This document shows positions 21,712-43,707 of a stretch of 62,712 nucleotides of DNA, in pieces. The notes beneath the pieces were generated by a model, which made no database searches, was not told where the DNA came from, and saw only the letters and a program-made list of their open reading frames with translations. Position 1 is the first letter of the stretch; each line of letters opens with the position of its first letter. Origin of the DNA: Prochlorococcus sp. AG-315-D17. Its GTDB lineage: Bacteria; Cyanobacteriota; Cyanobacteriia; PCC-6307; Cyanobiaceae. The position numbers and the translations under genes are program-made. Location: assembly GCA_003283685.1 (NCBI GenBank), contig QBWD01000004.1, forward strand, positions 1 to 62,712. Reading direction: 5' to 3'.

Positions 21712-22509
21712 TCAAAGTAAAAATGGTAATTTCCGAAGCTCAAGATTTAAAATAAAAAGAGAAACAAAAAGTCCTATTAAATTAATAGATAATATAAATA
21801 TTGACTCTGTATAGTTAATATATCCATATATCACACTAGTCCTAAATGGATCTAAGATTTTATAAATAAAATTGATATTTGCAATCCATGACAAGTCTCC
21901 AAGAGTTTCTTTTCTATATAATATTGGAGATGTTAAGAAAACCAATTGTAATATAATTGGCACCAATTGTGCAATATCTGTGAAGCGAATACTTATCAAG
22001 CAAATTAACAGCGGGAACCAATATATAAAAATAATTAAATTGAACAAAGGCAGCCAAGAAAATAATACAAAATTAGAAAATAGCGAACTTTTCAAGAAAA
22101 GTAATACTATAAAAACAAGTATAAATGACTGAAAAAAAGTCTGAATCTGAAATGACCATTCCTCTAAAGTATAAAAAAGAGGACTAAGATTCATATTTTT
22201 TATATTTGAAGAATTATGAGCAAAAAGATTAGGAGCATTTGCTATAGATGAACTTATGGTATTCCAAATAATTAAACCCATTCCTAAATAAATAAAATAA
22301 TCTCTAAAATCATCTACTTTAAAAACAGTCCCATATACGACACCTAAGGTTGCAATAGATAATAAATTGGAAAACCCTAGCCAAAAACTACCAAGAGTTG
22401 TTCTTACAAATCTAGCTCTTGTTCTTGATGTGGCTGTATACCACCATACTCGCCTAGTTCTAAAAGCAAATTTTAAATTATCTAATATCATTTCTATGAT
22501 AATAATCAT
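21712..22509 (-). CDS. ABC-2 type polysaccharide exporter permease (Wzm-like)
   Basis: A 265-residue integral membrane protein of the ABC-2 polysaccharide export family. The N-terminal cytosolic block TRARFVRTTLGSFWLGFSNL fits Wzm/KpsM/TagG proteins, followed by about six membrane segments (near 45-65, 70-85, 115-135, 145-170, 175-200, 232-255). It would form the channel for an undecaprenyl-linked glycan. The first 32 bases overlap the end of the ATPase gene upstream; an internal ATG at 22491 is an alternative start with less overlap. The gene order is ATPase then permease, the reverse of many wzm-wzt operons. Confidence 0.85.
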   Translation of the reverse strand: MIIIIEMILDNLKFAFRTRRVWWYTATSRTRARFVRTTLGSFWLGFSNLLSIATLGVVYGTVFKVDDFRDYFIYLGMGLIIWNTISSSIANAPNLFAHNSSNIKNMNLSPLFYTLEEWSFQIQTFFQSFILVFIVLLFLKSSLFSNFVLFSWLPLFNLIIFIYWFPLLICLISIRFTDIAQLVPIILQLVFLTSPILYRKETLGDLSWIANINFIYKILDPFRTSVIYGYINYTESIFILSINLIGLFVSLFILNLELRKLPFLL

Positions 22510-23854
22510 GAGTATGATAATAATTCAAAGCAGCTTCTAATAATCCATCATAAACAATTGATCCATGGTTAAAAACTATGCCTCTAACACAAAATTGCTT
22601 TAACAATAATTCTGAGTGACTTGCCAAAAATAATGTTGCAGCAGAGTCCATAAATTTTTTTAATCTCTTTTCTGCTCTTGCAAAGAAATCAGCATCACCT
22701 GTCCCAAATCCTTCATCTATTGCAAGACAATCATGAGGACTTGATGTGAGAATTGAAAAAATCAATCTTGCAGACATTCCTTCACTATAAGTTTTAATAG
22801 GTAATGAGATATATGATCCTAAACCAGAGAATTCAATGATTTCTCCTAGGAAGCCCTCAAAACCTTTTAGATTATAATTCTGAAGTAAATAATGTGCTTT
22901 ACATGCATCAATACCTGTCAATTCTGAGCTAGTTAAAAAAGCCTTTTGTAGCATTGGATATACATCTACGGAAATAGAGATTCTTCCATTTGTAGGTTTG
23001 TAAATTCCTGATATTAATCTTAAAAAACTACTTTTGCCAGAACCATTATGTCCAATCAAGGCAACTCGTTCTCCTCTCATAACAGTCAAATTAATGTTGT
23101 TTAATGCTATAATATTTGTTCCTGTTTTTGATTGATTTAACTCCCCCCCTGTTAAGCTAGATACTCTATTAACTAACCTCTTTGTTATTAACCTACTTTC
23201 TGGACAATAGACAGGTATAGCAAGATTTACATTTTTAATCTCAATTGCTAATCTGGTAAGAATCTCTATAGTCCCTCCAGAAAGTGATAAGATTAAAAAG
23301 TCAATTTCATTCTTAGAAACCTTTTGCAAAATAATATTTTCAAGAAAATTAGATACTTTAATTAAGGCATTACCGGATATCCATGGGTTAAGGGATTCAG
23401 GTTGATATAAATTCATCAAGTTTATTTGTTTACTTATCTGTTTAGTAAAAAGTTCAGCGGCATAAACCTTATTATCTAATACCTCTCTATCTTTTTCTAA
23501 TTGTTTAGATTTAGTAGGGAGAGTCTTATTAGCTCCCCAAAGCAACTGATAAACAATATCAGAGATTAAATAGTTTTTGACTTCAATATTATTTAACCAG
23601 TAATTTAGAGTATCAAAATCAACCTTCCTGCCATAAAGATTAATATATAGTTGATTAATTTGAAATTCAATTGACTTTCCTATGCCAAGCTGAATTTTAT
23701 ACTCATCTTGTAGAGATAATTGATTAGATATATCGCGAATTGTTGCTAAATTATAAGAAGTTGAATGCCAATAATTTATACCCGATGGATCTCCAGGTCT
23801 ACCGAAATAAGCAATATAAAGTTTCTGTATTTCCTTTGTATCAATACAAATCAT
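22478..23854 (-). CDS. Wzt-type polysaccharide ABC exporter ATPase with N-terminal DUF4214-like domain
   Basis: 458 residues in two parts. Residues 1 to about 205 carry two DUF4214-type units (LYIAYFGRPGDPSGINYW near 12 and LYINLYGRKVDFDTLNYW near 70) and match, segment by segment, the N-terminus of the 970-residue secreted protein at 43788-46700. Residues of about 235-455 are an ABC ATPase of the KpsT/Wzt type: Walker A GHNGSGKS near 265, signature YSEGMSARL near 357, Walker B CLAIDEGFG near 376, H-loop LASHSE. Classical Wzt proteins of the O9a type carry a C-terminal carbohydrate-binding domain; here it is missing and the extra domain is at the other end. The start lies 20 bases after secA on the same strand. 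Confidence 0.86.
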   Translation of the reverse strand: MICIDTKEIQKLYIAYFGRPGDPSGINYWHSTSYNLATIRDISNQLSLQDEYKIQLGIGKSIEFQINQLYINLYGRKVDFDTLNYWLNNIEVKNYLISDIVYQLLWGANKTLPTKSKQLEKDREVLDNKVYAAELFTKQISKQINLMNLYQPESLNPWISGNALIKVSNFLENIILQKVSKNEIDFLILSLSGGTIEILTRLAIEIKNVNLAIPVYCPESRLITKRLVNRVSSLTGGELNQSKTGTNIIALNNINLTVMRGERVALIGHNGSGKSSFLRLISGIYKPTNGRISISVDVYPMLQKAFLTSSELTGIDACKAHYLLQNYNLKGFEGFLGEIIEFSGLGSYISLPIKTYSEGMSARLIFSILTSSPHDCLAIDEGFGTGDADFFARAEKRLKKFMDSAATLFLASHSELLLKQFCVRGIVFNHGSIVYDGLLEAALNYYHTHDYYHRNDIR

Positions 23855-23874: not shown

Positions 23875-26712
23875 CTAAGTTTCAGCTTTTTTTGAAGAAG
23901 GTTGGAACATAAACATAGAATAAATAACATTCCTTCTCATGTTAATCATCATTTCTAGGAACATATCATAACCTTCATTTTTATATTCAATTAATGGATC
24001 CTTTTGTCCATAGCCCCTTAATCCTACTGATTCACGCAAAGCATCCATTGATTGAAGATGTTCTCTCCAAAGAGTATCAAGTTGTTGGAGAATAAAAAAT
24101 CTTTCAGCTTCTCTCATGATTCCAGGATGCGATTCTTCAAGTTTAGCTTCTTTCAGATCGTAAGCATTTCTCAATTGTTCTTTTAAGAAATTCTTTAACT
24201 GATTTATATCTAAACCTGATAAATCATCTATATTAAGATCATCCAAAATATAAATAAATTCCTTTACTTTTGACACTAATTGTTTTAGATCCCATTCTTC
24301 AGGTGGTAAGTCTTCATTAACATAAGCTTCAACTATTTCCTCCATTGTTCTTTCACCATAACCTATAACTTGGAGTTTTAATTCTCTACCTTCTAAAACT
24401 CTTCTTCGTTCTTTATAAACAGCTCTTCTTTGATTATTCATTACTTCATCATATTCAAATATTTGTTTCCTAATATCATAGTAATAGGTTTCTACTTTCT
24501 TCTGAGCTCCCTCTAATGAGCGCGTTAACATTCCAGATTCTATTGGCATATCTTCTTCAACCCGAAAAGCATTCATAAGTCCCGCCACCCTATCACCGCC
24601 AAATATACGCAATAAATTATCTTCTAAAGATAAAAAGAATCTAGTACTGCCTAAATCTCCTTGACGACCAGACCTACCTCTTAATTGATTATCAACTCTC
24701 CGAGATTCATGTCTCTCTGTACCAATCACATGCAACCCACCAACCTCTCTAACTGTTTTTTCTTCATGACTAATTACAGATTCATATTCTTTTTTTATTA
24801 AGCTAATAACAGTTCTTAAAGATGCAATAGTTTCGTCATCAGTAGGAGTTTTCTCAGCAGCTACAGAAATATAATCATCCAACTTCATGGAAGTTATAGA
24901 TCTGTCTCCCAATGATTTAACAAGAGTAGATGCCAAGTTATTAATAGCTTTATCGGTTTCATCAGTTAATACAGCAGGAAATAAATTCCTCAAAGAAGAT
25001 ATTTGGTTATTTCGTAAATTCTCAGACTTATTTTCTGATGATTTAAAACCCATTGATCCAGATTCTGTATTTCTTTGCAAAGGAATAGGAGGTTTATGAC
25101 CTTCTTCAGGCTTAACCAAACGAGGACTAAGAATCTGTTTAATTTTTAAACGCGACATATAATCACTATTACCTCCAAGAATGATGTCAGTTCCTCGCCC
25201 TGCCATATTTGTGGCAATTGTCACAGCACCTGATCGACCTGCTTGGGCAACAATTTCTGCTTCTCTTTCCACATTTTCTGGTTTTGCATTTAACAAGTTA
25301 TGAGGAATGTCCTCCTCAGACAGAAGTGTGCTTAATAATTCACTTTTTTCAACACTAGTGGTACCAATAAGTACAGGCCTGCCCTTCTTATGAATAACTG
25401 CTGTCTCCTTTGCTACTGCACGCCATTTTGCTGATTCTGTCTTAAAAACCTGATCAGCCCAGTCAGCCCTGGAGATTTTTCGATTAGTAGGAATAACAGT
25501 GGTTTCTAATTTATAAGTTTTCTCAAATTCAACTTCTTCAGTTTTGGCCGTTCCTGTCATTCCGGATAGTCTTGGATATAAAAGAAAGAAGTTTTGATAA
25601 GTAATTGAAGCTAAAGTTTGAGTTTCTGGTTGAATTGGAAGATTTTCTTTTGCTTCAATTGCTTGATGCTGTCCATCGCTCCAGCGTCTTCCCGGCATAA
25701 CTCTTCCTGTAAATTCATCAACAATTACAGCTTCCTTATCTCGGACTATGTAGTTAACGTCTTTAGTGAAAAGCTCTTTTGCTTTTAATGCATTAGTAAC
25801 ATAATGAGCCCAGGGATCTTTCGGATCATATAAGTCTTGAACCTGTAAAAACTTTTCAGTTTTAGAGAATCCTTCATCAGTCAAAATACAACTTCGTTGT
25901 TTCTCATCGACTTCGTAATCACCCTCTGGATCAATTCCTTCCTTACTCATTTCTTTAGCTCTGAATAAGTTTTTTACAACCTCAGCAGCTTTTTGATATT
26001 TTTCCTGAGATCTTTCTACTTGTCCAGAAATTATCAAAGGTGTTCTCGCCTCATCTATAAGGATTGAATCAACCTCATCAATAACACAAAATTGAAAATC
26101 CCTTTGAACTATTTCGGCTTTATCTGCAGCCATATTATCTCGCAAATAATCGAACCCAAGTTCTGAATTAGTTGCATAGGTAATATCACACTTGTAATTC
26201 TCCTTTCTTTGCAATGGATTCATATCCTGCTGAACTAATCCAACGCTGAGTCCAAGAAATCTATGAATTTGCCCCATCCATTCGGCATCTCGTCTTGCCA
26301 GATAGTCATTGACTGTAACTACATGGACTCCTCGACCAGTCAATGCATTTAAATAGCTAGGTAAAGTTGCGACCAATGTCTTACCTTCACCTGTTTTCAT
26401 TTCAGCAATTTGACCTTCATGCAGCACCATTCCACCAATCAGCTGTACGTCAAAATGCCTCATTCCTAATACTCTTTTAGAAGCCTCTCGAACTACCGCA
26501 AAAGCTTCAGGGAGCAAATCATCAAGAGCAGAAAGTTGCTCATCAACTGAGGATATCTTGCCCAAGCGTTCTCTGAACTCATTAGTACGCGATCTCAAGT
26601 CATCATCACTTAAAGGAATTAAATCCTCTTCAAAAATATTGACATCAGAAACAAGCGGGTAATATCTTTTAAGCTTGCGGGTATTTGGATCACCTAGTAA
26701 CTTTGAAAACAT
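23875..26712 (-). CDS. secA: Preprotein translocase motor SecA
   Basis: A 945-residue SecA. The DEAD-motor starts with [20 protein letters not shown] and the Walker [21 protein letters not shown]; the DEAD-equivalent box is [20 protein letters not shown]. The second helicase domain contains [14 protein letters not shown] and [21 protein letters not shown], and the helical scaffold/wing follow. The C-terminus ends without the zinc-binding CxCxSG tail, as in many cyanobacterial SecA proteins, and there is an insertion of about 90 residues near 530-620. It drives Sec-dependent export. The glycan-exporter ATPase gene follows after 20 bases with no terminator seen. Confidence 0.97.
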
Positions 26713-26951: not shown

Positions 26952-28031
26952 GTGAGTCCAATCAAAACTGCTCTCATAACAGGCATAACAGGTCAAGATG
27001 GAAGCTACCTTGCCGAATTACTAATTGATAAAGGATATAAAGTACATGGCTTAATTAGGCGCTCAAGTTCACCCAACATTTCAAGAATTGAGGAGTTATT
27101 AAAATCAAACCAAAATATTGAACTTCATTATGGTGATTTAACTGACAGCCTAAGCATCTTGAGAATAATAGAAGAGGTTAAACCAGATGAAATTTATAAC
27201 CTTGCCGCTCAAAGTCACGTAGGAGTAAGTTTTGACCAGGCCGAATACACCGCTGAAACCGATGCTTTAGGACCTTTAAGAATACTTGAAGCTGTACGAA
27301 TTCTAGGATTGACTAAAAGGACTCGCATTTACCAAGCAAGTACATCAGAATTATACGGTCTTATACAAGAGAAAGCTCAATCTGAGTCAACACCATTTTA
27401 CCCAAGAAGCCCATATGGAGTAGCAAAATTATATGCTTATTGGATAACAATTAACTATCGCGAGTCATACAATTTATTTGCATGTAATGGTATTTTGTTT
27501 AATCATGAATCACCTAGAAGAGGAGAAACATTTGTAACACGAAAAATCACCAAAGGTCTTTCGAGAATACAAAATAAGCTTGAGAATTGTTTATTCATGG
27601 GTAATATAGATTCCTTAAGAGATTGGGGACACGCAAAAGATTATGTTGAGATGCAATGGAGAATGCTTCAGCAAGAAAAGCCTGAGGACTACGTCATTGC
27701 AACTGGCATACAAACATCAGTAAGAAACTTTATAGAGATTTCAGCTCAGAAGTTAGGTTGGAGAGGAATCGAATGGGAAGGAAATAGGACTAATGAAATT
27801 GGCCGAAGGAAAGATAATGGAAATATAGTTATTAGAATAGATCCAAGATTCTACAGACCCGCAGAGGTGGATAATCTTCTTGGCGACCCTAGCAAAGCTC
27901 ATTCAAAACTTGGATGGAAACCATCCTCCACATTAGATGGACTAATATCAGAAATGATTTCAAGCGATATGGAATTAGCGTTAAAAGAGGCAAGAGATCT
28001 GAGAGTCAATGAATCAGTTAAGTATCAATAA
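26952..28031 (+). CDS. gmd: GDP-mannose 4,6-dehydratase
   Basis: 359 residues; a short-chain dehydrogenase-type enzyme converting GDP-mannose to GDP-4-keto-6-deoxymannose. The NADP site is [14 protein letters not shown], the catalytic Thr/Glu block is STSELYG, and the Tyr-Lys pair is in [12 protein letters not shown]. The GMD-specific loop is [16 protein letters not shown], and the end has [14 protein letters not shown]. The start is a GTG. It diverges from secA across 239 bases. Its product can feed D-rhamnose, fucose or perosamine pathways; no partner reductase is visible in the window. Confidence 0.92.
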
Positions 28032-28070
28032 ATAGGAATAAATGTTATTATCAATCAGTAGGTTAAATCA

Positions 28071-29249
28071 ATGTATCTAACATATAAAGATGTTATTGGG
28101 AGCAGTGAAGTCGAACATAGTAAGATCACACTAAATAACAAAGAAACCCTTACTTATTATATTGACCAAACAAATGGCATTAATATTATTGATAGATATC
28201 CAGTAATAGCACACGGGACAATACAATCAAATAGTATACAAATTTCCTGTATCGGACATGATAATTTAGAAGCAAATTTTATAAGAAATAGTTTGGATGA
28301 ATTAGATAAAATAATCGATTTAGACTTTATAGAAATGTCTCACTATAATGGATCACTACTTGATATATATCATGTTAATCATTCATCAAGTTTTACTGAA
28401 CCAAATATTATTGGTCAGGCACTGTCACAAAGATCAGAAGCTGGATCCTGGTGGGAGATTATATGGAAAGATAGTTTCCTATCCGGAGAGATTAATATAA
28501 ATTCAGATCAAAATACTATCATTCATGAAATAGGTCATACCCTAGGTTTAAGCCATCCATTTAATGATCCTTACAATAAGCTGTTTGATACTGAAGATAC
28601 AGTTATGTCATATAATAGAGGTGCTGGTGGATGGAACAATTGGTTCACAAAAATTGATTTAAATGCTCTTATTAGTATTTGGGGAAGAGAAGATGATCTT
28701 GGTTTTATAAATTATAGTATGACTAGTGATAATTATAAATTTCAAAAGAATTCTAGTAAGACATATTCTATCAATACAGAACTAGGTCTAGAAGATATTA
28801 GCGAAGTTAACACCTTACAATTTCCAGACAAAACTATTGACGTAAAAAAAGACATCATAGATGTGTTTAATCTGATAGTGGAGAAGGATCATATAACTGG
28901 AAAAATCTATAGGCTTTACAATGCTGCGTTTGGTCGTTTTCCGGATAAGGAAGGTTTAATTTATTGGATTGAGTCTAATAAATCTGGAATAGATACTTAT
29001 AGAAATATTGCTAGTTCATTTATTATCTCCAAAGAATTTGAAGATTTATATGATACTAATCCTAGTAATGAGAAATATATTACAGCTCTTTATACAAATA
29101 TTTTAGATAGAGCAGGAGACTCAGAAGGTTTTAATTATTGGCTAAATCAAATAAACAAAGGACATGAAGATAAAAGCGAACTACTAATGGGATTTTCTGA
29201 ATCTTTGGAGAATAAAGAACTCTTTTCTAATGAAACAAGCTTTGTTTAA
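28071..29249 (+). CDS. Metzincin-like secreted zinc metalloprotease with C-terminal DUF4214 module
   Basis: 392 residues. The zinc site HEIGHTLGLSH (about 151-161) is the complete HExxHxxGxxH of metzincins, and VMSYN (about 178) supplies the Met-turn, as in serralysins. Residues of about 275-390 hold two DUF4214-type units (LYNAAFGRFPDKEGLIYW and LYTNILDRAGDSEGFNYW). No RTX nonapeptides are visible and there is no N-terminal signal peptide, so export by the adjacent type I system is likely. It starts 39 bases after gmd. Possible roles are processing or shedding of the surface layer (inference). Confidence 0.8.
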   Translation: MYLTYKDVIGSSEVEHSKITLNNKETLTYYIDQTNGINIIDRYPVIAHGTIQSNSIQISCIGHDNLEANFIRNSLDELDKIIDLDFIEMSHYNGSLLDIYHVNHSSSFTEPNIIGQALSQRSEAGSWWEIIWKDSFLSGEININSDQNTIIHEIGHTLGLSHPFNDPYNKLFDTEDTVMSYNRGAGGWNNWFTKIDLNALISIWGREDDLGFINYSMTSDNYKFQKNSSKTYSINTELGLEDISEVNTLQFPDKTIDVKKDIIDVFNLIVEKDHITGKIYRLYNAAFGRFPDKEGLIYWIESNKSGIDTYRNIASSFIISKEFEDLYDTNPSNEKYITALYTNILDRAGDSEGFNYWLNQINKGHEDKSELLMGFSESLENKELFSNETSFV

Positions 29250-29314
29250 ATACACAATTGCACGTTCAAGACGAAACATAGCGAAATAATTCAAGGGATT
29301 GTATCTTGGTAATG

Positions 29315-29320
29315 TATAAT
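29315..29320 (+). promoter_or_regulatory. Candidate extended -10 promoter of the small 61-residue protein gene
   Basis: A consensus TATAAT preceded by TG lies 24 bases before the ATG at 29345. No clear -35 box is visible, as is usual in Prochlorococcus promoters. It would start a transcript with a very short leader covering the small protein and perhaps the following secretion genes. Confidence 0.4.
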
Positions 29321-29344
29321 TAACTTTGATTTTATATTTTAAAC

Positions 29345-29530
29345 ATGGCAACTGTTACTATCGATGATAAAGAATATAATTTAGACGATTTATCTGATAC
29401 CGCAAAGAAATTATTGGCCAGTTTACAATTTGCTCAATCTGAAATTCAACGAACACAAGCCAACTTAGCTTTAATGAATACAGCCGCAAGTACTTATTCA
29501 AATCAACTACAGCAAGAACTAAAAAAATAA
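29345..29530 (+). CDS. Small conserved-type protein, DUF6447-like
   Basis: A 61-residue protein starting MATVTIDDKEYNLDDLSD, followed by a predicted amphipathic helical stretch rich in Gln, Ala and Leu. The pattern of a short beta hairpin, a D/E-L-S-D turn and a long helix resembles a family of tiny proteins common in marine cyanobacteria and their phages; I believe this is DUF6447 but could not check. It sits between the metalloprotease and the type I secretion genes on the same strand, with its own probable promoter. Function is unknown. Confidence 0.6.
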   Translation: MATVTIDDKEYNLDDLSDTAKKLLASLQFAQSEIQRTQANLALMNTAASTYSNQLQQELKK

Positions 29531-29615
29531 ATCTAGTACTTAACATATACATACAACAGAAACTACAATATCTGATGCAGATATTCTACTAATTCAACTA
29601 TTTCTGAGAGTTATA

Positions 29616-30362
29616 ATGAAATCACTTAAATGTTTAAACAAAGAATCAATTGAACTTCTAAATAATAACAAATTACTTAAGCCTCTTATCCATGCAGAGT
29701 ATATAAAAAATATACTTAAAGAAGTAATTATAGAAAAAGAACTCTCAAATGAAATAACTGATAAATTCCTTGCTAAATATGATCTTAATGATCCCCAAAA
29801 ATATAAAGAATGGTTAGAAAAAAATAACCTAACTAATTTAGAGGTTAGAAATCTTGCATTAGCAGATATTAGACTAAAACGCTATTGCATGGAAAACTTT
29901 GAACATCAAATAGAATCTAGATTTTTAGAAAGGAAAGATCATTTAGATATGTTCGTATATAGCATGATTAGAGTAAAAGAATATTTTAAAGCTAATGAAT
30001 TATATTTGAGAATTATCGAAAAGGAAGAAGATATTGGAGATTTGGCAAGTAAATTTTCAGAAGGACCTGAGAAGAAGAGTCGAGGAGTAGTTGGTCCATT
30101 ATCATTAGAAGCAGCACACCCCATCCTTGCGAAGCAATTAAAAGATTGCAAACCAGGCGAGATTAAGTCTCCTATTCAAATAGAAAAATTTCATATAGTT
30201 TGTAGATTAGAATCACATGACCCAGCTAAACTAGATCAAGCAATGCGTGAAAAGATGTCAATAGAATTATTTGATAAATGGATAGAAAAGCCTATTGAAG
30301 AAATTAATAATGAACTTCTAAGTAATTTAAAAACCAACAGAAATACTGAGGCTGGTTCATGA
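29616..30362 (+). CDS. Parvulin-type peptidyl-prolyl isomerase of the type I secretion cluster
   Basis: 248 residues. A helical N-terminal region (about 10-105) is followed by a rotamase domain (about 120-225). The rotamase blocks IGDLASKFSEGPEKKSRGVV and LKDCKPGEIKSPIQIEKFHI match the PpiC/SurA core. There is no signal peptide, so it probably stays in the cytoplasm, unlike SurA. Its TGA overlaps the ATG of the ABC exporter gene (ATGA), implying translational coupling. A role in keeping a Pro-containing substrate export-competent is an inference from this coupling. Confidence 0.8.
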   Translation: MKSLKCLNKESIELLNNNKLLKPLIHAEYIKNILKEVIIEKELSNEITDKFLAKYDLNDPQKYKEWLEKNNLTNLEVRNLALADIRLKRYCMENFEHQIESRFLERKDHLDMFVYSMIRVKEYFKANELYLRIIEKEEDIGDLASKFSEGPEKKSRGVVGPLSLEAAHPILAKQLKDCKPGEIKSPIQIEKFHIVCRLESHDPAKLDQAMREKMSIELFDKWIEKPIEEINNELLSNLKTNRNTEAGS

Positions 30363-33304
30363 AAATTAATATTAGATCAATAGAAGCTTTTAAGAATATT
30401 GATGATTCAAGTTTAACACTTATAGAACAAAATTCAGAGTACTTGAGTTATAAAATGGGTGAGCCAATATCCAGGGGAAATATCATTTCAAATAAAGTGA
30501 TAATCATAATCAGTGGTACAGCAAGGTTATTACACAAAGGCAAAAGTGCTCAAAATACGATCTCACTAACAACGCTAAAGTCAGATAGTTTTATAGGGCT
30601 TACATCTCTCCTAAGAGCTTCTGCATGTGAATCTATATGCGCAAGTAATAATCTATTAGCTTTAAGTTTATCTGATAATTTAATCATAAGTCTTTATCAA
30701 AATGATATACATTTTCGTGAGTGGTGTAATACAAATATTCAAGCAGTAGAGGCATACGAAATTGCAAAAATTTTACATAAGAATTCCTCTCGGGGTGATA
30801 AACAATTAAAAAATTCAGTTGATTTGTTATTAGAGAATTTAAAGGTCTCAGTATTAGAAAATGACAGTCAGATACATATAGATGATAGCAATATAAAAAT
30901 CGTAGGAAGTGAAAATATTGTAGATAAAACAATAGGGGATTTATTAGAAACTGATAAAGAGAAAATAAATGTCAGAGAGCCTTTTCCAGCTAGGATTTTA
31001 ACTTTACCTAAATTAGTTTATAATAATTTATCTAATTTTCAACCCTTATTAGAGAAAGATAAGGAGGAGGAAGCTAATATCCCAAATTTTGATAATGTTA
31101 AAAGTGCTAATATTATCGAAAAGAGTTTAGAAGAAGTAGGTCAATATTCACCAAGCAAAAAATTTAAAATTATAAAAGCGCAAGGAGTAATGAGAGAGAC
31201 AATTGCTTGTTTGCAAATGCTAGCAACTGAATTAGATTTACCCTATAGATCTGATTCGATAGAGAAAATTCTTCGAGACTATATTCAAAGAGGCAACAAG
31301 CCTACAATTGAACTACTTGGTGGAATAACATCAATGATGGGTTTGCATTCATCTGGTGCAAAAGTTGAACCTCAGATGGCTAATAGAATTCCCACTCCCT
31401 CATTAATAGCATGGCGAAATAGTTTTGCTTTAGTCAAAAATAGCAGCTCAGAAACTCTTGAAATAGTTTCCCCAAGTGAAGGAATTATTTATCTAAAACC
31501 AGAACAATTTGAAGAAAGTTTTGAAAAAGGAGTTATTGAATTATTACTTGTAGAAAAACATCAACAAACTCCTGAAAGGAAATTTGGCATAGAGTGGCTA
31601 TTACCTTCAATTAATCGTTATAAAGGTGTACTTTTACAAGTTCTTTTAGCTTCATTTGTTGTACAACTTTTTGGATTAGCAAATCCATTAATGATGCAAG
31701 TAATAATTGACAAAGTTATTAGTCAACGAAGTTTAGATACACTACAAATATTAGGCATAGCTCTTGTAGCAGCAACAATAATAGGTGGTATCTTAAGTAG
31801 TCTGAGAACATTTCTTTTCTCAGAAACAACAAATAGAATTGATACTAGGCTTGGTGCTGAAGTTATTGATCATTTATTGAAATTACCATTAAATTATTTT
31901 GATCGGCGCCCTGTCGGTGAATTAGGGAGTCGAGTTGCAGAGTTAGAAAAAATACGTAATTTCCTTACTGGGCAGGCGCTTACAACTATTTTAGATGCTG
32001 CATTTTCCTTAATATATATTGTAGTGATGGTGATTTATAGTTGGTTATTAACACTTATAGCTTTAGGAGTAGTCCCTATACAAATAATGATTACATTATT
32101 AGGGACACCGTTAATAAGGAAACAAATTAGAGAAATAGCTATAGAAAATGCCTCTACACAAAGTCATTTAATAGAAGTCTTAACAGGAATTCAAACTGTA
32201 AAAGCTCAAAATGTTGAGAGAATTAGTCGTTGGAAATGGCAAGAACTATATAGTAAATACATATCTAAATCATTTCAGAAAACTATTACTGGTACAGCAC
32301 TAGGGGAAACTAGTCAGGTATTACAACAACTATCACAACTATTAGTTTTATGGGTTGGAGCTACACTAGTTTTAAAAGGTCAACTTAGCCTAGGACAATT
32401 AATTGCATTTCGAATCATTTCAGGATATGTAACTCAACCATTACTAAGACTAAGTACTATATGGCAAAATATACAGGAATTAAGAGTATCTTTTGAAAGG
32501 TTAGCTGATATTATTGATACTCCTGAAGAAGCTTCTAAATCAGATAAAGAAAAAATCCCATTACCCAGTATTAATGGTGCTGTTGAGTTTGAGGATGTTT
32601 CTTTTAAATTTATACAAGGGCAACCAGATGTTCTCAAGAGAATAAATTTAAAAATTAAACCAGGTCAATTTGTTGGAATTGTTGGCCAAAGTGGAAGCGG
32701 TAAAAGTACTCTAATGAAGTTATTACCAAGACTATATAATCCCCATCAAGGAAGAATATTGATTGATGGATATGATGTAGACAAAGTAGAACTTTATTCT
32801 TTACGCCGGCAAGTTGGAATAGTTCCTCAAGAACCTCTTTTATTTGCAGGAAGTGTTAACGATAATATTGCACTTACTAATCCTGAAGTATCCAGTGATG
32901 AGATTGTGAAAGTCTCGAAAATTGCAAATGCTCATGATTTTATTATGCAATTGCAAGATGGATATAGTACCAATGTTGGTGAAAGAGGTTCAGGATTATC
33001 TGGAGGACAAAAACAAAGAATTGCAATTGCAAGAACTTTACTAAGTAATCCAAAGTTATTAATAATGGATGAGGCTACAAGCGCACTCGATTATGAAACT
33101 GAAAGAAAAGTATGTGAAGGTCTTAGATCCAACTGTAAAAACTCAACTGTATTTTTCATTACTCATAGATTGAGTACAGTAAGAAACTCTGACTTAATTA
33201 TAATGCTTCACCAAGGTTTATTAGTAGAAAGTGGAACACATGATGAGCTAATGAACCTTAAGGGAAGATATTTTGCTCTTTATCGCCAACAAGAATCATC
33301 TTAA
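30359..33304 (+). CDS. Type I secretion ABC transporter with cyclic-nucleotide-binding-like and degenerate C39-like domains
   Basis: 981 residues in four parts. The N-terminal roughly 135 residues resemble a cNMP-binding beta-roll (IISGTARLLHKGKS, then SFIGLTSLLRA). A C39-peptidase-like domain covers about 275-410, in which the usual catalytic His motif reads SFALVK, so it should not cleave and may act as a docking domain as in HlyB. Six membrane helices lie at about 420-700. The ATPase has Walker A GQSGSGKST near 775, LSGGQKQRIAIARTLL near 879, and Walker B LLIMDEATSALD. It is the inner-membrane motor exporting unfolded RTX-type proteins. HlyD follows directly; the outer-membrane TolC is not in the window. 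Confidence 0.88.
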   Translation: MKINIRSIEAFKNIDDSSLTLIEQNSEYLSYKMGEPISRGNIISNKVIIIISGTARLLHKGKSAQNTISLTTLKSDSFIGLTSLLRASACESICASNNLLALSLSDNLIISLYQNDIHFREWCNTNIQAVEAYEIAKILHKNSSRGDKQLKNSVDLLLENLKVSVLENDSQIHIDDSNIKIVGSENIVDKTIGDLLETDKEKINVREPFPARILTLPKLVYNNLSNFQPLLEKDKEEEANIPNFDNVKSANIIEKSLEEVGQYSPSKKFKIIKAQGVMRETIACLQMLATELDLPYRSDSIEKILRDYIQRGNKPTIELLGGITSMMGLHSSGAKVEPQMANRIPTPSLIAWRNSFALVKNSSSETLEIVSPSEGIIYLKPEQFEESFEKGVIELLLVEKHQQTPERKFGIEWLLPSINRYKGVLLQVLLASFVVQLFGLANPLMMQVIIDKVISQRSLDTLQILGIALVAATIIGGILSSLRTFLFSETTNRIDTRLGAEVIDHLLKLPLNYFDRRPVGELGSRVAELEKIRNFLTGQALTTILDAAFSLIYIVVMVIYSWLLTLIALGVVPIQIMITLLGTPLIRKQIREIAIENASTQSHLIEVLTGIQTVKAQNVERISRWKWQELYSKYISKSFQKTITGTALGETSQVLQQLSQLLVLWVGATLVLKGQLSLGQLIAFRIISGYVTQPLLRLSTIWQNIQELRVSFERLADIIDTPEEASKSDKEKIPLPSINGAVEFEDVSFKFIQGQPDVLKRINLKIKPGQFVGIVGQSGSGKSTLMKLLPRLYNPHQGRILIDGYDVDKVELYSLRRQVGIVPQEPLLFAGSVNDNIALTNPEVSSDEIVKVSKIANAHDFIMQLQDGYSTNVGERGSGLSGGQKQRIAIARTLLSNPKLLIMDEATSALDYETERKVCEGLRSNCKNSTVFFITHRLSTVRNSDLIIMLHQGLLVESGTHDELMNLKGRYFALYRQQESS

Positions 33305-33308
33305 AACA

Positions 33309-34409
33309 ATGAAAAATAACATCAATCACTTCTACAAAAGAGTAAAGGATAAAATTCCTGTAAACATAAACTCTAAAATTGTTAATCCATCAATTTGGAT
33401 GAAAAATTATTTACATTCCAAGGTTAGCAAAATAGATATTGAGAAAATTAATCCCTCTATTTTAATGGAGAAGTTACAAGATAAGATTGAAAGGATATTC
33501 AGTAAAGATTTAACTCAGGTTTACTTAAAGCAGTCAAGTTTTTGGGCAAGGTCAATAAGTTGGGTATTGATGGGTGGTACAGCCTTTGCAATAGGATGGG
33601 TAAGCATAGCTAAGACTGATGAAATAGTTGTAACTTTCGGGAAACTTGAACCGAAAGGAGGAGTCGTAAATGTGCAAATGCCTTTAGAAGGAATTGCCCG
33701 TAAAATCTTAGTTAAAGAAGGCGAGCAAGTAAAAAAAGGCCAAGACTTAATATTACTTGATACGGAAATTACAGAAGCAAGAAATGCGACATTAGAAAAA
33801 ACTCTCGAATTCAATAAAGAAATCATGAAAAGATTAAGTTTATTAGTAAAAGAAGGTGCTGTCACAGAGTTACAATATTTAGAACAAAAAATAAAAATAG
33901 AAGAAATTCAAAATGATATTAAAACAAATTTAGTAAGACTCAAATATCAGAAAATAATCTCTCCAGTTGATGGATTAGTTTTTGAACTACAACCGAAAGG
34001 ACCTGGTTATGTAGCAAAAAGTAGTGAACCTGTATTACAAATAGTCCCTCTAAATAATCTATTAGCAAAGGTTGAAATAGATAGCCGAACGATTGGTTTC
34101 GTTAAACCAGGAAAAAAAGTTGAAATCAGTATTGATTCGTTTCCAGCTGGCGATTTTGGGGTCATAGATGGAACAGTGTCAAGAATAGGTTCAGACGCAC
34201 TTCCACCATCCCCATCTGAGGGGAAAGGTTATCGCTTCCCTGCAGACATAACCTTAAGTAATCAATATCTCGAATTAAAATCTGGACAAAAACTTACACT
34301 TCAAGCTGGAATGAGTCTCACTGCCAACATTAAGTTAAGAAAACTAACATATCTGCAAATTTTACTAAATAAATTTGGAGATAAAGCAAATTCATTGAAA
34401 GCAATATAA
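33309..34409 (+). CDS. HlyD-family membrane fusion protein
   Basis: 366 residues from the ATG at 33309 (an upstream TTG at 33273 inside the transporter gene is less likely). About 75 cytosolic residues precede a single membrane helix (about 82-102, WVLMGGTAFAIGWVSIA). Then come a lipoyl half-motif (GKLEPKGGVVNVQMPLEG), a short coiled coil and the matching half (KIISPVDGLVFELQPKGP), and a beta-barrel domain. It bridges the inner-membrane ABC transporter to TolC. The coiled coil is only about 60 residues, clearly shorter than in E. coli HlyD, implying a different reach or TolC contact. Confidence 0.87.
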   Translation: MKNNINHFYKRVKDKIPVNINSKIVNPSIWMKNYLHSKVSKIDIEKINPSILMEKLQDKIERIFSKDLTQVYLKQSSFWARSISWVLMGGTAFAIGWVSIAKTDEIVVTFGKLEPKGGVVNVQMPLEGIARKILVKEGEQVKKGQDLILLDTEITEARNATLEKTLEFNKEIMKRLSLLVKEGAVTELQYLEQKIKIEEIQNDIKTNLVRLKYQKIISPVDGLVFELQPKGPGYVAKSSEPVLQIVPLNNLLAKVEIDSRTIGFVKPGKKVEISIDSFPAGDFGVIDGTVSRIGSDALPPSPSEGKGYRFPADITLSNQYLELKSGQKLTLQAGMSLTANIKLRKLTYLQILLNKFGDKANSLKAI

Positions 34410-34476
34410 ATGAGTAAAGGTAGATAACATAAATACAAACTTCAACAACTCAAAATATAACTCTGGCCGATCAATT

Positions 34477-34590
34477 ATGACACAAGCAATTAAATATCAT
34501 TTAGAAAAAAATATTTATAGAGACTCTAAATATTGTCAGAAACTTGAGCAAATATTGGATAGTTTAGTTCAATATAAATATTTTGATTAG
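34477..34590 (+). CDS. Possible 37-residue small ORF between hlyD and the TPR gene
   Basis: An ATG-initiated frame of 37 codons, MTQAIKYHLEKNIYRDSKYC and onward, ends 3 bases before the ATG of the TPR/GT41 gene. It is Lys/Tyr-rich with no recognisable domain and no clear ribosome site. The exact spacing to the next start suggests possible translational coupling, but a frame of this size is expected by chance in such AT-rich DNA. Confidence 0.25.
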   Translation: MTQAIKYHLEKNIYRDSKYCQKLEQILDSLVQYKYFD

Positions 34591-34593
34591 AAA

Positions 34594-37056
34594 ATGAATA
34601 AACCAAACCATTTGGAAAATAAAATACTAAATAAAGCATTAAACGCACATCAAACTGGAAATATTCATGAAGCTAAAAAATATTATAAATTATTTATCGA
34701 AAAAGGATTTACTAATTTAAGAGTTTTCAATAATTTTGCTCTTATTCAACAACAAGATGGGAATTATTCTGAAGCAGTAAGCTTATACAAAAAATCAATA
34801 CAATTATATCCTAATGATCCTAAGTCATATACAAATCTTAGCGGTATTATGAAGGCTTATAAAAAATTTGATGAGGCAGAATTATTAATAAGAAAAGCCT
34901 TATCGCTTAAAGTAGATTATGCTGAAGCAAACCTTATCCTAGGAGAAATACTGTTAGAAAAAGGAAACTTAAAAGAGGCAGAAAAATATATGTTAACCTC
35001 TCTTAAATCAAAACCTAATAGCTACAAATCTCATTATAATCTAGGTTTGATATCTAACAGTCTTGGGCAGCTAGAACAAGCAGAGAGGTATATTAATAAT
35101 GCAATTATACTAAAACCTGATTTCTTAGAGGGACATTTTAATCTCGGCGCAATTTTTAAAGTCCAAAAGAAATTCATAGATGCAGAAAAGTCAACTCTCA
35201 AAGCAATTGAAATTAATCCAAATATAGCTGAAGCTTTTGATAATCTAGCTTCGATTTACCAAGCAACAGGAAAATTAAAACAAGCCGAAATAGCAATAAA
35301 AAAATCTATAGCATTAAATCCTAATCTTGCAAACTCACACTATACTCAGGCTCTTATATTACATGGAAAAGGCAGCCTAGTAGAAGCAGAAAAATCACTA
35401 CTCAGAGCAATTAATATAAACTCAAACTTTGCAGAAGCCTATAATAATCTTGGTGCCATATGCATAGAAAGTCCAAAACTAAAAGAAGCAGAAATCTATA
35501 CTAAAAAAGCAATTAGTATAAAGTCTAATTATGCATTAGCACATTGTAATTTAGGAACTATTTCAAGATTACTTAACAAGCCAAGTGAAGCTATAAAAGC
35601 TGGAGAAAAAGCTATTGAGCTTGATCCATCTCTTGAAGTAGCGTATATTAATCTTGCCGAGTCACTGCAAAAATATAATGAATTTTCAAAAGCAATTGAA
35701 ATTTTAGAAGTAGGATTAAAACTACAACCTATTAATAATAAGATTAAGTTTTATTTACTCAAACTATACTCTAAAATATGCAATTGGGAATTATTAGGGA
35801 AGAATATAAATTGGCTAAATGAGACTGAAAAGGATAAAGAATCATTGGAATTAATGACAATAATGTACTTAGAAGATGATCCAATAAAAGAATTTGAACG
35901 TGCAAAACAATATTATCAACATAATTATTCTAGTCCTCAGAAGGATATAGCTCTGCAGAAAAAAAATAAGATCAGAATAGGTTACTTCTCTTATAACTTC
36001 TGCCTTCATAGTACGATGGTTATATTTGCACACATTATTGAATTACATGATAAAGATAAATTTGATATATTCATTTATGATTTTGGTCTGAAGAATGATG
36101 AGGACAGCTATAAGGAAAGAATCAAACAAAGTGTGACTAATTACAAATCAGTCAAAGATCTAAGCAATAAAGAATTAATTAACTTAGCTAGACATGATCA
36201 AATCGATATCGCTATCGATTTGATGGGCTATACAAGTAGCAATAGAGCAATGATTTTCTCAAACAGAATTGCTCCGATACAAGTTAGTTATCTTGACTAT
36301 CCAGGTTCAACAGGAAATGATTCCATGGACTATATCATTGCGGATAAGATCTTAATTCCAGAGCAAGATGAAAGATTTTATACTGAAAAAGTTCTTCGAT
36401 TACCTCATGCAGTTCAACCCACAGATGACACATTAGAACCTTCAGACAAACTTTTCAAAAGATCTGACTTCGGTCTAGATGATCATTCGTTTGTATTTTG
36501 TTGTTTTTCAAAAAACGAAAAGATTCAATCTAAAGAGTTTAAAATATGGATGAATCTCCTCTTGAAAAATGAGGAAAGTCTCCTTTGGTTAATGCAATCA
36601 AATGATGAAGCCAAAGAAAATATACAACTAGAAGCAACAAGGCAGGGGGTAAATCCATCAAGAATAATATTTGCTACAAAAGTTCCTCTTAGAGAACATA
36701 TAAGTCGTCAGAAATTTGCTGATCTGGCCTTAGATACATTTAATTTCAGCTCAGGTGTTTTAACAAATTTGGCCTTAAAAGTAGGACTACCAATACTGAC
36801 ATTCCCTGGTAAAACTTATTCATCTAGATTAACAACAAGTATCTTAGATACTTTGGGGTTAAAGGAATTAATAGCTCTTGATGAAAGAGATTATCAAGAA
36901 AAGGCACTAAGGTTTTCGCTAGACAGAACATACACATCAACTCTTAGGGAGAAAATATTATCTCTTAAACGATCATCCCCATACTTCGATTCTCAAAAAT
37001 ATTGTAATAACCTTGAAAAGGGATTTAGAGATTTATATGAAAGTCATTCTAATTAA
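34594..37056 (+). CDS. TPR protein with atypical GT41-like glycosyltransferase domain
   Basis: 820 residues. About eleven tetratricopeptide repeats fill residues 10-390 (for example NFAEAYNNLGAICIESPKLK). The GT41-like region runs from about 455 to the end. RIGYFSYNFCLHSTM keeps the catalytic-type His, SYLDYPGSTG is intact, and NEKIQSKEFKIW keeps the Lys. However, the segment equivalent to GHTTTSDALWAG reads SGVLTNLALKVG near 719, so the His-Thr-Thr and Asp that bind the nucleotide sugar are absent. It may have altered donor binding or be a non-catalytic scaffold. It sits directly downstream of the secretion genes, which suggests the type I substrates as partners (inference). Confidence 0.82.
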   Translation: MNKPNHLENKILNKALNAHQTGNIHEAKKYYKLFIEKGFTNLRVFNNFALIQQQDGNYSEAVSLYKKSIQLYPNDPKSYTNLSGIMKAYKKFDEAELLIRKALSLKVDYAEANLILGEILLEKGNLKEAEKYMLTSLKSKPNSYKSHYNLGLISNSLGQLEQAERYINNAIILKPDFLEGHFNLGAIFKVQKKFIDAEKSTLKAIEINPNIAEAFDNLASIYQATGKLKQAEIAIKKSIALNPNLANSHYTQALILHGKGSLVEAEKSLLRAININSNFAEAYNNLGAICIESPKLKEAEIYTKKAISIKSNYALAHCNLGTISRLLNKPSEAIKAGEKAIELDPSLEVAYINLAESLQKYNEFSKAIEILEVGLKLQPINNKIKFYLLKLYSKICNWELLGKNINWLNETEKDKESLELMTIMYLEDDPIKEFERAKQYYQHNYSSPQKDIALQKKNKIRIGYFSYNFCLHSTMVIFAHIIELHDKDKFDIFIYDFGLKNDEDSYKERIKQSVTNYKSVKDLSNKELINLARHDQIDIAIDLMGYTSSNRAMIFSNRIAPIQVSYLDYPGSTGNDSMDYIIADKILIPEQDERFYTEKVLRLPHAVQPTDDTLEPSDKLFKRSDFGLDDHSFVFCCFSKNEKIQSKEFKIWMNLLLKNEESLLWLMQSNDEAKENIQLEATRQGVNPSRIIFATKVPLREHISRQKFADLALDTFNFSSGVLTNLALKVGLPILTFPGKTYSSRLTTSILDTLGLKELIALDERDYQEKALRFSLDRTYTSTLREKILSLKRSSPYFDSQKYCNNLEKGFRDLYESHSN

Positions 37057-37078
37057 TAAAATCAGACAGAATAATTAG

Positions 37079-38143
37079 CTATATTTTCAACCTTTCTGAA
37101 ACATTTTTACACCAATCTAAGTTTTCTGAATACCATTTAACTGTATATATAAGAGCTTCCTCTAGTTTAAAGCGAGGCTTCCATCCTAGCTCCTTGTTGA
37201 TAAGTTCATTATTAATTGAATACCTAAGATCATGCCCTAGTCGATCTTCAACTGTTTCTATAAATCTATTATGTGGAGCATTTTTAGGATTTATTAAATC
37301 AATGATTTCACATATGGAATTTATAATGCTTAAGTTTGTCCTCTCTCCTGAACCACCTATACAATAGCTACAACCTATCTTTCCATGTATTGCAGTTTTA
37401 AGTAAAGCATCCACATGATCTTCAACAAATAGCCAATCTCTAATATTTAAACCATTACCATATAGAGGAATGGATTCCATTTGAAATGCTTTATATATAG
37501 TTAAAGGTATTAGCTTGTCTGGAAATTGCCATGGTCCAAAATTATTACTGCAATTTGTGATCGTAATTGGTAGTCCATAAGTGTAATACCAAGCTTTAAC
37601 AAAATGATCGCTTGCCGCTTTGCTAGCGGAATAAGGATTTCTTGGTGAATATTTACTTTCTTCTGAAAAAGAACCAGAGCTTCCAAGTGATCCAAATACT
37701 TCATCGGTACTTACATTATGAAATCTAAAGTGTTGTTTTCTAGTTTCTGAAAGTTTTGCCCAATGAGACCTTATAGCTTCCAACAAATTAAAAGTTCCTA
37801 TTACATTACACTCTAAAAATTTTTCTGGTCCTGAAATAGATCTATCAACATGTGTTTCTGCCGCTAAATGAAAGACAATATCAGGATCGATAAGATTTAT
37901 AGCCTGTCTAATCAAATCAGCATTTGAAAGATTAACTTTCAGAAATTGATACCTATTATTATCTACTGATGAGATATCAAGAGTTTGATTCACTCCTGTT
38001 AAATCACTGGAATATCCTAATTTATCTATATTAAAAACCTTTAAATTTGTCTCTGAGAGTAATCTTCGTATTAAAGCACCACCAATAAAGCCACCGCCTC
38101 CAGTAACTAAAATATTCTTTATTGATTTTGGGAAATCAATCAC
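37079..38143 (-). CDS. rmlB: dTDP-glucose 4,6-dehydratase
   Basis: 354 residues. The NAD site is TGGGGFIGGALIRRLL, the catalytic block includes STDEVFGSLG (Thr-Asp-Glu), and the Tyr-Lys pair is in NPYSASKAASDHF. These define RmlB among SDR dehydratases. It makes dTDP-4-keto-6-deoxyglucose, the branch-point for dTDP-rhamnose and amino-deoxysugars. It is the last gene of the rmlC-aminotransferase-rmlA-rmlB run on the minus strand and converges with the TPR/GT41 gene. Confidence 0.94.
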   Translation of the reverse strand: MIDFPKSIKNILVTGGGGFIGGALIRRLLSETNLKVFNIDKLGYSSDLTGVNQTLDISSVDNNRYQFLKVNLSNADLIRQAINLIDPDIVFHLAAETHVDRSISGPEKFLECNVIGTFNLLEAIRSHWAKLSETRKQHFRFHNVSTDEVFGSLGSSGSFSEESKYSPRNPYSASKAASDHFVKAWYYTYGLPITITNCSNNFGPWQFPDKLIPLTIYKAFQMESIPLYGNGLNIRDWLFVEDHVDALLKTAIHGKIGCSYCIGGSGERTNLSIINSICEIIDLINPKNAPHNRFIETVEDRLGHDLRYSINNELINKELGWKPRFKLEEALIYTVKWYSENLDWCKNVSERLKI

Positions 38144-38186
38144 AACAGGATCAGAAAAACTCTTAGATTAAAAAGAACAATAAAAA

Positions 38187-39071
38187 TTAATCTTCTAAAA
38201 GACTTGATAAATATTTACCATAACCGCTATGAAGAAATGGCTTGGCAAGCATTGCTAATTGTGAATCGTTAATCCATCCCTGCCGCCAGGCGACCTCCTC
38301 TGGACATCCTACTTTTAAACCTTGACGATGCTCAATAGTGCGAATATATGAAGTTGCAGCATGAAGTGAATCAAATGTTCCTGTATCAAGCCAGGACATC
38401 CCTCTTCCAAGTAATTCAACCTTTAATAGTCCATCATCAAGATAACTTTCATTAAGTGAAGTAATTTCTAATTCACCCCTAGTAGAAACTGTCAAATTCT
38501 TTGCTCTACAAATAGCTGAATTATCATAGAAATATAATCCAGTTATAGCATATTTACTTTTTGGTTTATCTGGTTTCTCTTCAATACTAATTACATTGCC
38601 ATAATTATCAATTTCAACAACTCCATATCTATTTGGATCACTAACTGGATAGGCAAAAACAGTACCGCCAATCTTTTGCAAACTAGCTGATTGTAAAATA
38701 CTGATTAAATCATTTCCATGAAATAAATTATCTCCCAAAATTAATGCAATATTACTATTACCAATGAATTGTTCTCCTATTAAAAATGCCTCTGCTATTC
38801 CTTTAGGTTCTTCTTGAATTGCATATTTAAAATCTATACCCAGATTTTTTCCGCTTCCCAAAAGATATTGAAAGGCCTTTTGATCTTTTGGAGTGGTAAT
38901 AATTAAAAACTCTTTAATTCCTGTTAGCATTAATGTACTGAGTGGATAATAAATCATTGGTTTATCATGCACAGGCATAAGTTGCTTACTAGTTGTTAAT
39001 GTAATAGGCATAAGCCTCATTCCTTTACCTCCAGCAAGAATTATTCCTTTTCGAGATTTAGTCGATTCCAT
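38187..39071 (-). CDS. rmlA: Glucose-1-phosphate thymidylyltransferase
   Basis: 294 residues. The nucleotidyltransferase signature is LAGGKGMRLMPITLTTSKQL, followed by PMIYYPLSTLML and the metal-binding LGDNLFHGN. RmlA activates glucose-1-phosphate to dTDP-glucose, the substrate of RmlB encoded 43 bases downstream. The length is normal. Confidence 0.95.
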   Translation of the reverse strand: MESTKSRKGIILAGGKGMRLMPITLTTSKQLMPVHDKPMIYYPLSTLMLTGIKEFLIITTPKDQKAFQYLLGSGKNLGIDFKYAIQEEPKGIAEAFLIGEQFIGNSNIALILGDNLFHGNDLISILQSASLQKIGGTVFAYPVSDPNRYGVVEIDNYGNVISIEEKPDKPKSKYAITGLYFYDNSAICRAKNLTVSTRGELEITSLNESYLDDGLLKVELLGRGMSWLDTGTFDSLHAATSYIRTIEHRQGLKVGCPEEVAWRQGWINDSQLAMLAKPFLHSGYGKYLSSLLED

Positions 39072-39196
39072 TGTATTGATTTAATTATTCATAATGACAC
39101 TTCAATCTTACCGAGATTAAAGCCCCTTAAAAAGACAGATATAGGATTCATCTCACCATAATTTAATATTATAGCTATATATTTTCAATTAAAGTC

Positions 39197-40315
39197 TTAT
39201 TTCTTTTCATGAAAATACTCTTTAACCCAATAAATAACATAATCAATATCCTCTTCATTCATTGCAGGATGACAAGGCAATGAAATCAAACGTTTCCATT
39301 CTTTGCTGATAACAGGATATTCTCTCTGGTTCATATTTTTTACTAGATTATATAAATATAGTGGTTTAAAATGAACACTTGTATGAATCTTCTTATCAGC
39401 AAGATAATCTATTAACAAATCACGGTCCTCTGAAGCAACTCTTGCACAATAATATTGACAAGTCTCGCTCCATGCAGGAATTTGAATATATTCTGAAAGT
39501 TCTTTATTATACTTTGATTGAATATGTCTTCTCAGAGCAAGGTAAGAAGGCAATTTTTTCATTTGTTCTAAGCAAATAGTCGCCATTATATCAATCATAT
39601 AGCACTTATAACCAAGAATATCGACCTCATAATCCCAGCTATATCCTGGCTTTTGATTAAACTTATTGTTAGAAACTCTTGAATAAGTACTAGTAATGCC
39701 TAACCAAGTCATAGATACTAACTTTTCATATAGTTCCTTATTGTTAGTAGTAATCATACCCCCATCACCACAAGGCATTGTTTTTACAGCCTGGAATGAC
39801 CAAACTGCAATATCACCTTTAGTGCCAGCACCTGGGGTATAACAACTATGAGCACAATCTTCTAAAATAAAACCATCATAGAATTTGCGAATTTCATCAA
39901 TTGGTGCTGCAACACCTGCATGATTAACTGCAATTATTGCTTGTGTATTAGCCTTCAGATTCTTATAAACATCTTCGGGACAAATATTTAAATCATTATA
40001 ACGAACATCAACAATATTAGAGCTACAGTTATTCCATAATGGCACAACAGCTGTAGTCATAAAAGAAACTGATGGATTAATAACATCACCATCTTTAATT
40101 CCCATAGCTTTAAAAACAAGATCCTGTCCATGGGTTGCACTTGTTACTGCAACTGCATATTTAGCTCCAACCATCTCAGCAAATTTCTTTTCAAACTCAG
40201 CTACCTTTGGACCTTTGCCCCACCAACCACTCTTGATTGTCTCAGATAAGGCTTGTATTTCTTCTTCTCCTCCAAGTGGTCGAAGAACAGGGAGCATATT
40301 TCTTCTGATTTTCAT
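39197..40315 (-). CDS. DegT/DnrJ/EryC1 family sugar aminotransferase
   Basis: A 372-residue PLP enzyme. The Lys that forms the internal aldimine lies in VWSFQAVKTMPCGDGGMITT, with EDCAHS supplying the cofactor Asp. The family converts ketodeoxysugar nucleotides to amino sugars. The gene lies between rmlC and rmlA, 2 bases after rmlC, so the likely substrate is a dTDP-4-keto (or 3-keto) 6-deoxy sugar; a GDP-perosamine-type role using the GMD product is an alternative. It makes an amino-deoxysugar in the surface glycan probable, in place of or beside rhamnose. Confidence 0.85.
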   Translation of the reverse strand: MKIRRNMLPVLRPLGGEEEIQALSETIKSGWWGKGPKVAEFEKKFAEMVGAKYAVAVTSATHGQDLVFKAMGIKDGDVINPSVSFMTTAVVPLWNNCSSNIVDVRYNDLNICPEDVYKNLKANTQAIIAVNHAGVAAPIDEIRKFYDGFILEDCAHSCYTPGAGTKGDIAVWSFQAVKTMPCGDGGMITTNNKELYEKLVSMTWLGITSTYSRVSNNKFNQKPGYSWDYEVDILGYKCYMIDIMATICLEQMKKLPSYLALRRHIQSKYNKELSEYIQIPAWSETCQYYCARVASEDRDLLIDYLADKKIHTSVHFKPLYLYNLVKNMNQREYPVISKEWKRLISLPCHPAMNEEDIDYVIYWVKEYFHEKK

Positions 40316-40317
40316 GA

Positions 40318-40866: not shown

Positions 40867-40995
40867 AAAGAACTTTATGTTAATAACAAAGAAAAAATTG
40901 TTTGAAAATTTAAATATACACCTAATTAATTAAAATTTAAAACTGTTTCTAAATAAAGATCATTACGGGATATAATTTTTAAACCGAATCTAGAA

Positions 40996-42090: not shown

Positions 42091-42204
42091 AAATTAAAAA
42101 ATATTCTTACTTACAATCATTAATTGTTTTTTATTCAAAAACACATCTCACAACTCCTTTTAATTTAATAATTTTATTGTATAATAATATGGATTTATAA
42201 TAAT

Positions 42205-43590: not shown

Positions 43591-43707
43591 ATAATTCTAA
43601 TAATTAAAAATAAAGGGACAAAAAACCGACAACAATAATAATTTGTTGAATATTATTAGAGGATTGCTACTAGTGAATTAAATTTCTAGTGAAATTTAAA
43701 TGAACAA

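Follow-up and report, generated by a model that had tools for sequence, protein, structure and literature searches.

A DUF4214-type module common to a Wzt-like ATPase and a surface-type protein of Prochlorococcus

Contig QBWD01000004.1 of Prochlorococcus sp. AG-315-D17 (positions 1 to 62,712, analysed here as one stretch of 62,712 nucleotides and referred to as the window) encodes a Wzt-like ATPase whose N-terminal module recurs at the start of a 970-aa (amino acid) surface-type RTX protein. The ATPase belongs to a probable glycan exporter. The two modules are homologous. The copy on the ATPase is under purifying selection, and the exporter and the DUF4214 surface proteins seem to belong to a single system of the cell envelope. 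The most economical reading is shared glycan recognition, which we hold tentatively, at somewhat below an even chance. The analysis centres on the following features of the window:

23282..23854, minus strand: N-terminal DUF4214-type module of the Wzt-like ATPase (residues 1 to about 191; BLASTP, Pfam and joint alignment)
22508..23245, minus strand: Wzt-type nucleotide-binding domain (NBD; residues 204-449)
21712..22509, minus strand: Wzm-type permease (ABC2_membrane); its gene overlaps the ATPase gene at the latter's end
23875..26712, minus strand: secA, directly upstream of the ATPase gene and a fixed landmark between the exporter and the surface/secretion island
43788..46700, minus strand: 970-aa surface-type RTX protein, with the module at its N-terminus and a match to an RTX calcium-binding repeat (residues 639-667)
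46176..46700, minus strand: homologous N-terminal module of this protein (residues 1 to about 175)

The fused ATPase and its module

The open reading frame (ORF) of the ATPase (22478-23854, minus strand, 458 aa) begins 20 bases past the stop codon of secA, and its end overlaps with the first bases of the permease gene. In addition to an ABC_tran match at residues 251-381 (Pfam), family, sequence and fold comparison placed the NBD closest to polysaccharide-exporting Wzt/TagH/KpsT proteins. The best NCBIfam model was galactan exporter Wzt (NF050108; residues 204-449, E=3.5e-52), with 177 bits against an equivalog cut-off of 400 that was not reached, while the closest PDB sequences were those of M. 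abscessus Wzt (7e-40) and the adjoining permease (21712-22509) matched PF01061 and galactan Wzm. ATP-binding residues G268-K274, Y356, S357, G359, D380, E381 and H413 are invariant in a 58-row alignment, and we take GHNGSGKS, YSEGM and CLAIDEG of the NBD to be the Walker A, signature and Walker B motifs, respectively. The pair is probably an exporter of the Wzm/Wzt type with a polysaccharide as its cargo, and the fused ATPase, if a Wzt, would necessarily be cytosolic. The first-pass annotation had described it as lacking the classical C-terminal glycan-recognition domain, and this description holds, with no Wzt_C match on the ATPase in a Pfam scan up to E=1 and a C-terminal end only nine residues beyond the NBD match. 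Galactan-type Wzt/Wzm systems without a carbohydrate-binding domain (CBD; NF050108, M. abscessus 9qhw and 9qfx) match the NBD best by family and by sequence and rank among its top fold matches, but their chains measure about 260 aa and their equivalog cut-off lies well above the score obtained here.

BLASTP aligned residues 1-174 of the ATPase with residues 1-165 of the 970-aa protein (55/174 identical, 32%; E=3e-30), in agreement with the alignment of the two N-termini first proposed, and the match reaches about residue 190 in a joint alignment of 53 rows comprising ATPase and surface modules. The four motif pairs quoted in the first-pass annotation all lie inside the BLASTP alignment, where LLWGANK against LIWAAQN needs a gap after the sixth letter. 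DUF4214 (PF13946), the family suggested earlier for both N-termini, scored above its curated gathering cut-off (23.2 bits) in the surface module as well as in the ATPase (26.2 bits for the whole protein, 29.0 bits for the module alone). Between the two module families, 30 columns are occupied by an identical residue at a frequency of at least 85% in both and two by differing conserved residues, and the column entropies correlate (0.57 over 189 columns). The ATPase copy departs from other DUF4214 proteins in its location, since it would be cytosolic while the other members inspected by eye seem to be secreted or surface-type. A predicted model of the ATPase module has 11 helices and a predicted local distance difference test (pLDDT) score of 90.8. 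The full-length model averages a pLDDT of 72 overall and is too poor in the ATP-binding cassette (ABC) part for the module to be placed relative to the NBD.

The fused form is conserved. Among the 120 proteins listed (window included) of 1,892 found at E<=0.001, metagenome proteins included, lengths range from 454 to 468 aa, and identity to the query is 65-78% for the other 119. In 300 Cyanobiaceae genomes the ATPase profile matched 74 at 1e-40, namely 21 with the fusion, matching from residue 1-7, and 53 without the module, in which the match starts at residue 183 at the earliest and which include some more distant ABC proteins. This survey scored the five best candidates per genome, which weakens the absences it records, while a survey of the genus of G001 scored all candidates (40/44 in one genome) and found the ATPase in 31 of 41 genomes (29 fused, two cut at contig starts). 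The ATPase was matched in 23 of 244 phylum genomes, with the module only in G001 and G066, both already among the Cyanobiaceae fused set. All 21 fused loci of the Cyanobiaceae survey are open throughout, and in six chosen pairs dN/dS ranged from 0.21 to 0.29 for the module and from 0.04 to 0.09 for the NBD. The chance that the fusion is an assembly, start-site or annotation artefact unsupported in relatives, as the first-pass annotation had allowed, appears negligible to us in view of its full length and uniform size across many genomes and metagenome proteins, the open loci, its prevalence in the genus and the selection on the module.

The module tree separates ATPase modules (26 rows) from surface modules (27 rows) by one branch (support 99/98), so that one fusion suffices. 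In G072 the order secA-wzt-wzm-cysE-gntR is unchanged with wzt unfused, and G302 and G147 likewise have an unfused wzt after secA (the secA copy of the latter looks damaged); the module was thus gained in place. Apparently a single fusion occurred, ancestrally to one genus of Prochlorococcus, and the neighbouring surface-protein family is the likely donor, the transfer presumably running from surface protein to Wzt. In the NBD tree, L105 is the fused G288 copy carried under an unfused label, the fused label of L020 (cut by the contig start) is a guess, and L022, a Prochlorococcus sequence in which the module was not matched, is a long branch and therefore unsure in position.

Two records among these loci were unusual. 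Contig 31 of G305 (L006, L007) has the secA end, wzt and wzm at both of its ends as inverted copies, probably an assembly palindrome, and a record titled Candidatus Pelagibacter (L011) is a typical Prochlorococcus secA-wzt-wzm-cysE contig, either misnamed or from a mixed bin.

Joint presence and joint loss of exporter and surface proteins

Counted at E<=1e-30 and with the ATPase itself excluded, the surface module was present in 20 of the 21 fused Cyanobiaceae genomes vs 1 of the 279 others (Fisher test uncorrected for kinship), which answers the first-pass annotation's call for a survey of the co-occurrence of DUF4214-Wzt fusions and DUF4214 surface proteins. The fused genome without it (G288) has its ATPase on a short contig piece, and in G300, the single non-fused genome with it, wzm sits at a contig end (L179). 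ATPase and surface module lie on one contig in 17 of the 20 genomes, with 13-34 kb between the module matches, and on separate contigs in three. Within the genus, 27 of the 41 genomes have both and eight have neither.

CysE was located in five of the ten genus genomes without the ATPase, the only informative ones of the ten, corresponding to three empty sites, one eroded site and the wzm at the contig end of G300. At the empty sites (G282, G668 and G673) secA directly adjoins cysE, while the eroded site (G223; L183, L187) retains module and wzm remnants with stops, but no NBD, beside secA and cysE. A genome-wide search for DUF4214 returned no matches in the three empty-site genomes and one 91-aa frame in G223, as against 16 (G195), 7 (G271) and 9 (G010) in the closest relatives of these loss genomes; the surface protein is absent from all four, although incompleteness may explain part of the absence in G668 and G673, whose assemblies measure 1.0-1.1 Mb. 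Two further features enter here:

26952..53169, no strand assigned: island lying between secA and an ORF at 53314, whose counterpart is absent at the site in three empty-site relatives, as are wzm-wzt
29616..34409, plus strand: PpiC-type foldase, type I secretion ABC protein (cNMP-binding, C39-like and ABC domains) and HlyD-type adaptor, identified by domain matches, with a gene order that recurs in relatives

Exporter and island flank the retained secA on opposite sides, and in the three empty-site genomes both are absent there. Across these genomes, exporter and DUF4214 proteins are nearly always kept or lost together, so that the parts behave as one system.

Proposed glycan recognition and its alternatives

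In the explanation that we propose, a Wzt lacking the C-terminal carbohydrate domain would have received a DUF4214-type helical module at its N-terminus, in place and once. Outside the cell, N-terminal and C-terminal DUF4214 modules would hold secreted proteins on the glycan delivered by Wzm/Wzt, while inside the cell the Wzt copy may contact the same lipid-linked glycan and help to present it for export, by analogy a parallel to the C-terminal carbohydrate domain of other Wzt proteins. As a whole this explanation falls a little short of an even chance, with glycan contact as its weak link. The more pointed idea of one recognition module on both sides of the envelope, by which the exporter certifies the glycan on which the surface coat is built, is advanced with more reserve. 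Were it true, control of the Wzt substrate and anchoring of surface proteins would rest on one common recognition domain. The findings point, in a way that can be tested, to a ligand for DUF4214, a widespread domain of unknown function, and to a means by which a phototroph abundant in the ocean may fasten proteins to its surface, with the empty-site genomes as a natural control.

A glycan-reading carbohydrate domain on Wzt is established elsewhere (PMC9445017), binding of O-antigen by the N-domain of RsaA is likewise established (PMC6978808), in segmented filamentous bacteria DUF4214 is named as a probable surface anchor (PMC12780176), and DUF4214 surface proteins are thought to form a surface-layer (S-layer)-anchored enzyme in another organism, as cited in a Halomonas paper (PMC11970703). 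CBD-type systems (A. aeolicus, E. coli O9a; PMC9445017) also combine a Wzt NBD and a Wzm permease with an extra ATPase domain positioned to act on the glycan; that domain, however, is a C-terminal jelly roll, whereas the one described here is N-terminal, helical and of the DUF4214 type. In the literature searched, passages on DUF4214 make no mention of Wzt, and neither these nor those on Prochlorococcus Wzt (PMC4594306) yielded a description of a DUF4214-Wzt fusion, which is no proof that none exists. No DUF4214 on cytosolic glycosyltransferases was seen by eye, and with no family scan, at ORF ends in 79 phylum genomes (14 with matches); this look covered 23 of 27 new loci, of which 16 gave an ORF, six no motif and one a 23-aa fragment. 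Of 84 records from a search of plasmids, 40 places were listed, and their annotation was DUF4214 (38), tandem-95 repeat (1) or absent (1).

Several observations weigh against glycan recognition by the module or against its tie to the surface proteins. Distances among ATPase modules follow those of the NBD (r=0.93) rather than those of surface modules (r=0.22, permutation p 0.08; -0.005 without G066), module pairs from the same genome are no closer than others (0.306 vs 0.306, 22 pairs), and co-variation of the two module families was not found. The dN/dS of the ATPase module is 2.4 to 5.5 times that of the NBD. Weaker surface-module matches (E 1.8e-24 to 5e-6) occur in eight further non-fused Cyanobiaceae genomes, and within the genus four genomes have the ATPase only (G288, G669, G672, G306) and two the surface module only (G300, G678). 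In G047, G302 and G072 the contig of an unfused wzt also encodes, 22-43 kb away from it, a protein that has the module near its N-terminus, so that such a protein does not require the fusion and the linkage seems older than it. The four loss genomes group with G195 and co-loss is confined to this one clade, which amounts to at least one co-loss and not four. In the empty-site genomes, the type I secretion system (T1SS) genes are also absent at that place (with no search elsewhere in the genome), so that their absence could by itself account for the loss of the surface proteins. Lastly, the closest solved fold to the module model is, weakly, that of the phycobilisome linker (Foldseek, VIA).

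The linker domain (PF00427), which binds phycobiliproteins, also gave a weak profile match with the DUF4214 module, at 11-19% sequence identity over the aligned parts of the first 21 fold matches. As in such linkers, the module could be a protein-protein docking or self-association domain that binds no glycan, recruiting a glycosyltransferase, the permease or another Wzt when on Wzt and driving lattice contacts when on surface proteins. This is the main rival to glycan recognition, and on balance we judge it unlikely: the fold and profile matches are weak, helical folds match easily, a common fold does not give function, and docking offers no ready reason for the joint absence of exporter and DUF4214 proteins. 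Separately from this question, DUF4214 repeats and PF00427 linker domains have LGR and S-EY--FG positions in common and may be distant relatives.

Another possibility is that the T1SS is all that links the DUF4214 proteins to the island, the Wzt copy being a neutral or regulatory by-product of local duplication. The T1SS, foldase and adaptor genes do lie within the same island and are absent from that place along with it, and both the lower constraint on the ATPase module and the missing co-variation fit this account. Neutrality, however, is at odds with the dN/dS values of the six pairs and with full fusions in all genus genomes but the two contig-cut ones (29/31), and wzm-wzt lie outside the island, across the retained secA, yet are absent with it. 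We consider this account improbable, more so than docking.

The proposed likeness to the N-terminus of Caulobacter RsaA was not recovered. The rsaA gene cluster of Caulobacter comprises a T1SS, a metalloprotease and glycan genes, and the window resembles it in layout, with an N-terminal helical domain and RTX body, T1SS, metalloprotease and glycan genes. No sequence similarity was detected, however, a further point against glycan recognition: profile A2 had no matches among PDB sequences up to E=10, an hhalign comparison of A2 and RsaA did not reach significance (P 0.29, 25 columns), and shuffled RsaA sequences scored at least as high as RsaA itself in 605/2000 cases with the repeat hidden Markov model (HMM) and 427/2000 with the module HMM. 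RsaA_NTD (PF19198) did not match either window module in a scan to E=5, in which filters drop most matches above about 0.1, while RsaA itself scored 222.5 bits; its relatives were found in 0/3 genomes, 0/142 in the class of G304 and not in plasmids, and RsaA was not among the fold matches listed for the module model (Foldseek, VIA).

Surface proteins and neighbouring genes

The island also contains the following features:

29010..29225, plus strand: C-terminal DUF4214 domain (104.4 bits, residues 314-385) of a 392-aa metzincin-like protein (28071-29249)
37079..40866, minus strand: nucleotide-sugar genes (dehydratase, nucleotidyl transferase, DegT aminotransferase and RmlC-type epimerase)

The secretion ABC protein (30359-33304, 981 aa) has a weak N-terminal cNMP-binding match and a C39-like domain and is preceded by the PpiC-type foldase; together with the HlyD-type adaptor, this set is the probable exporter of the surface proteins. 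The 970-aa RTX protein is presumably located at the surface. DUF4214 matches number 6-17 per genome in ten Prochlorococcus genomes. Among 120 listed of 285 surface proteins, all found through their N-domain, this domain averages 84% identity vs 37% in the body. A 1216-aa protein at 48230-51880 contains three GT4-type glycosyltransferase stretches. Many DUF4214 proteins (the metzincin-like protein of the window; L024-L050, secreted-type by eye) end in a high-scoring C-terminal DUF4214, and such proteins often finish with letters like LLGFAESAENKALFTEMTGFG, perhaps a common sorting or anchoring tail.
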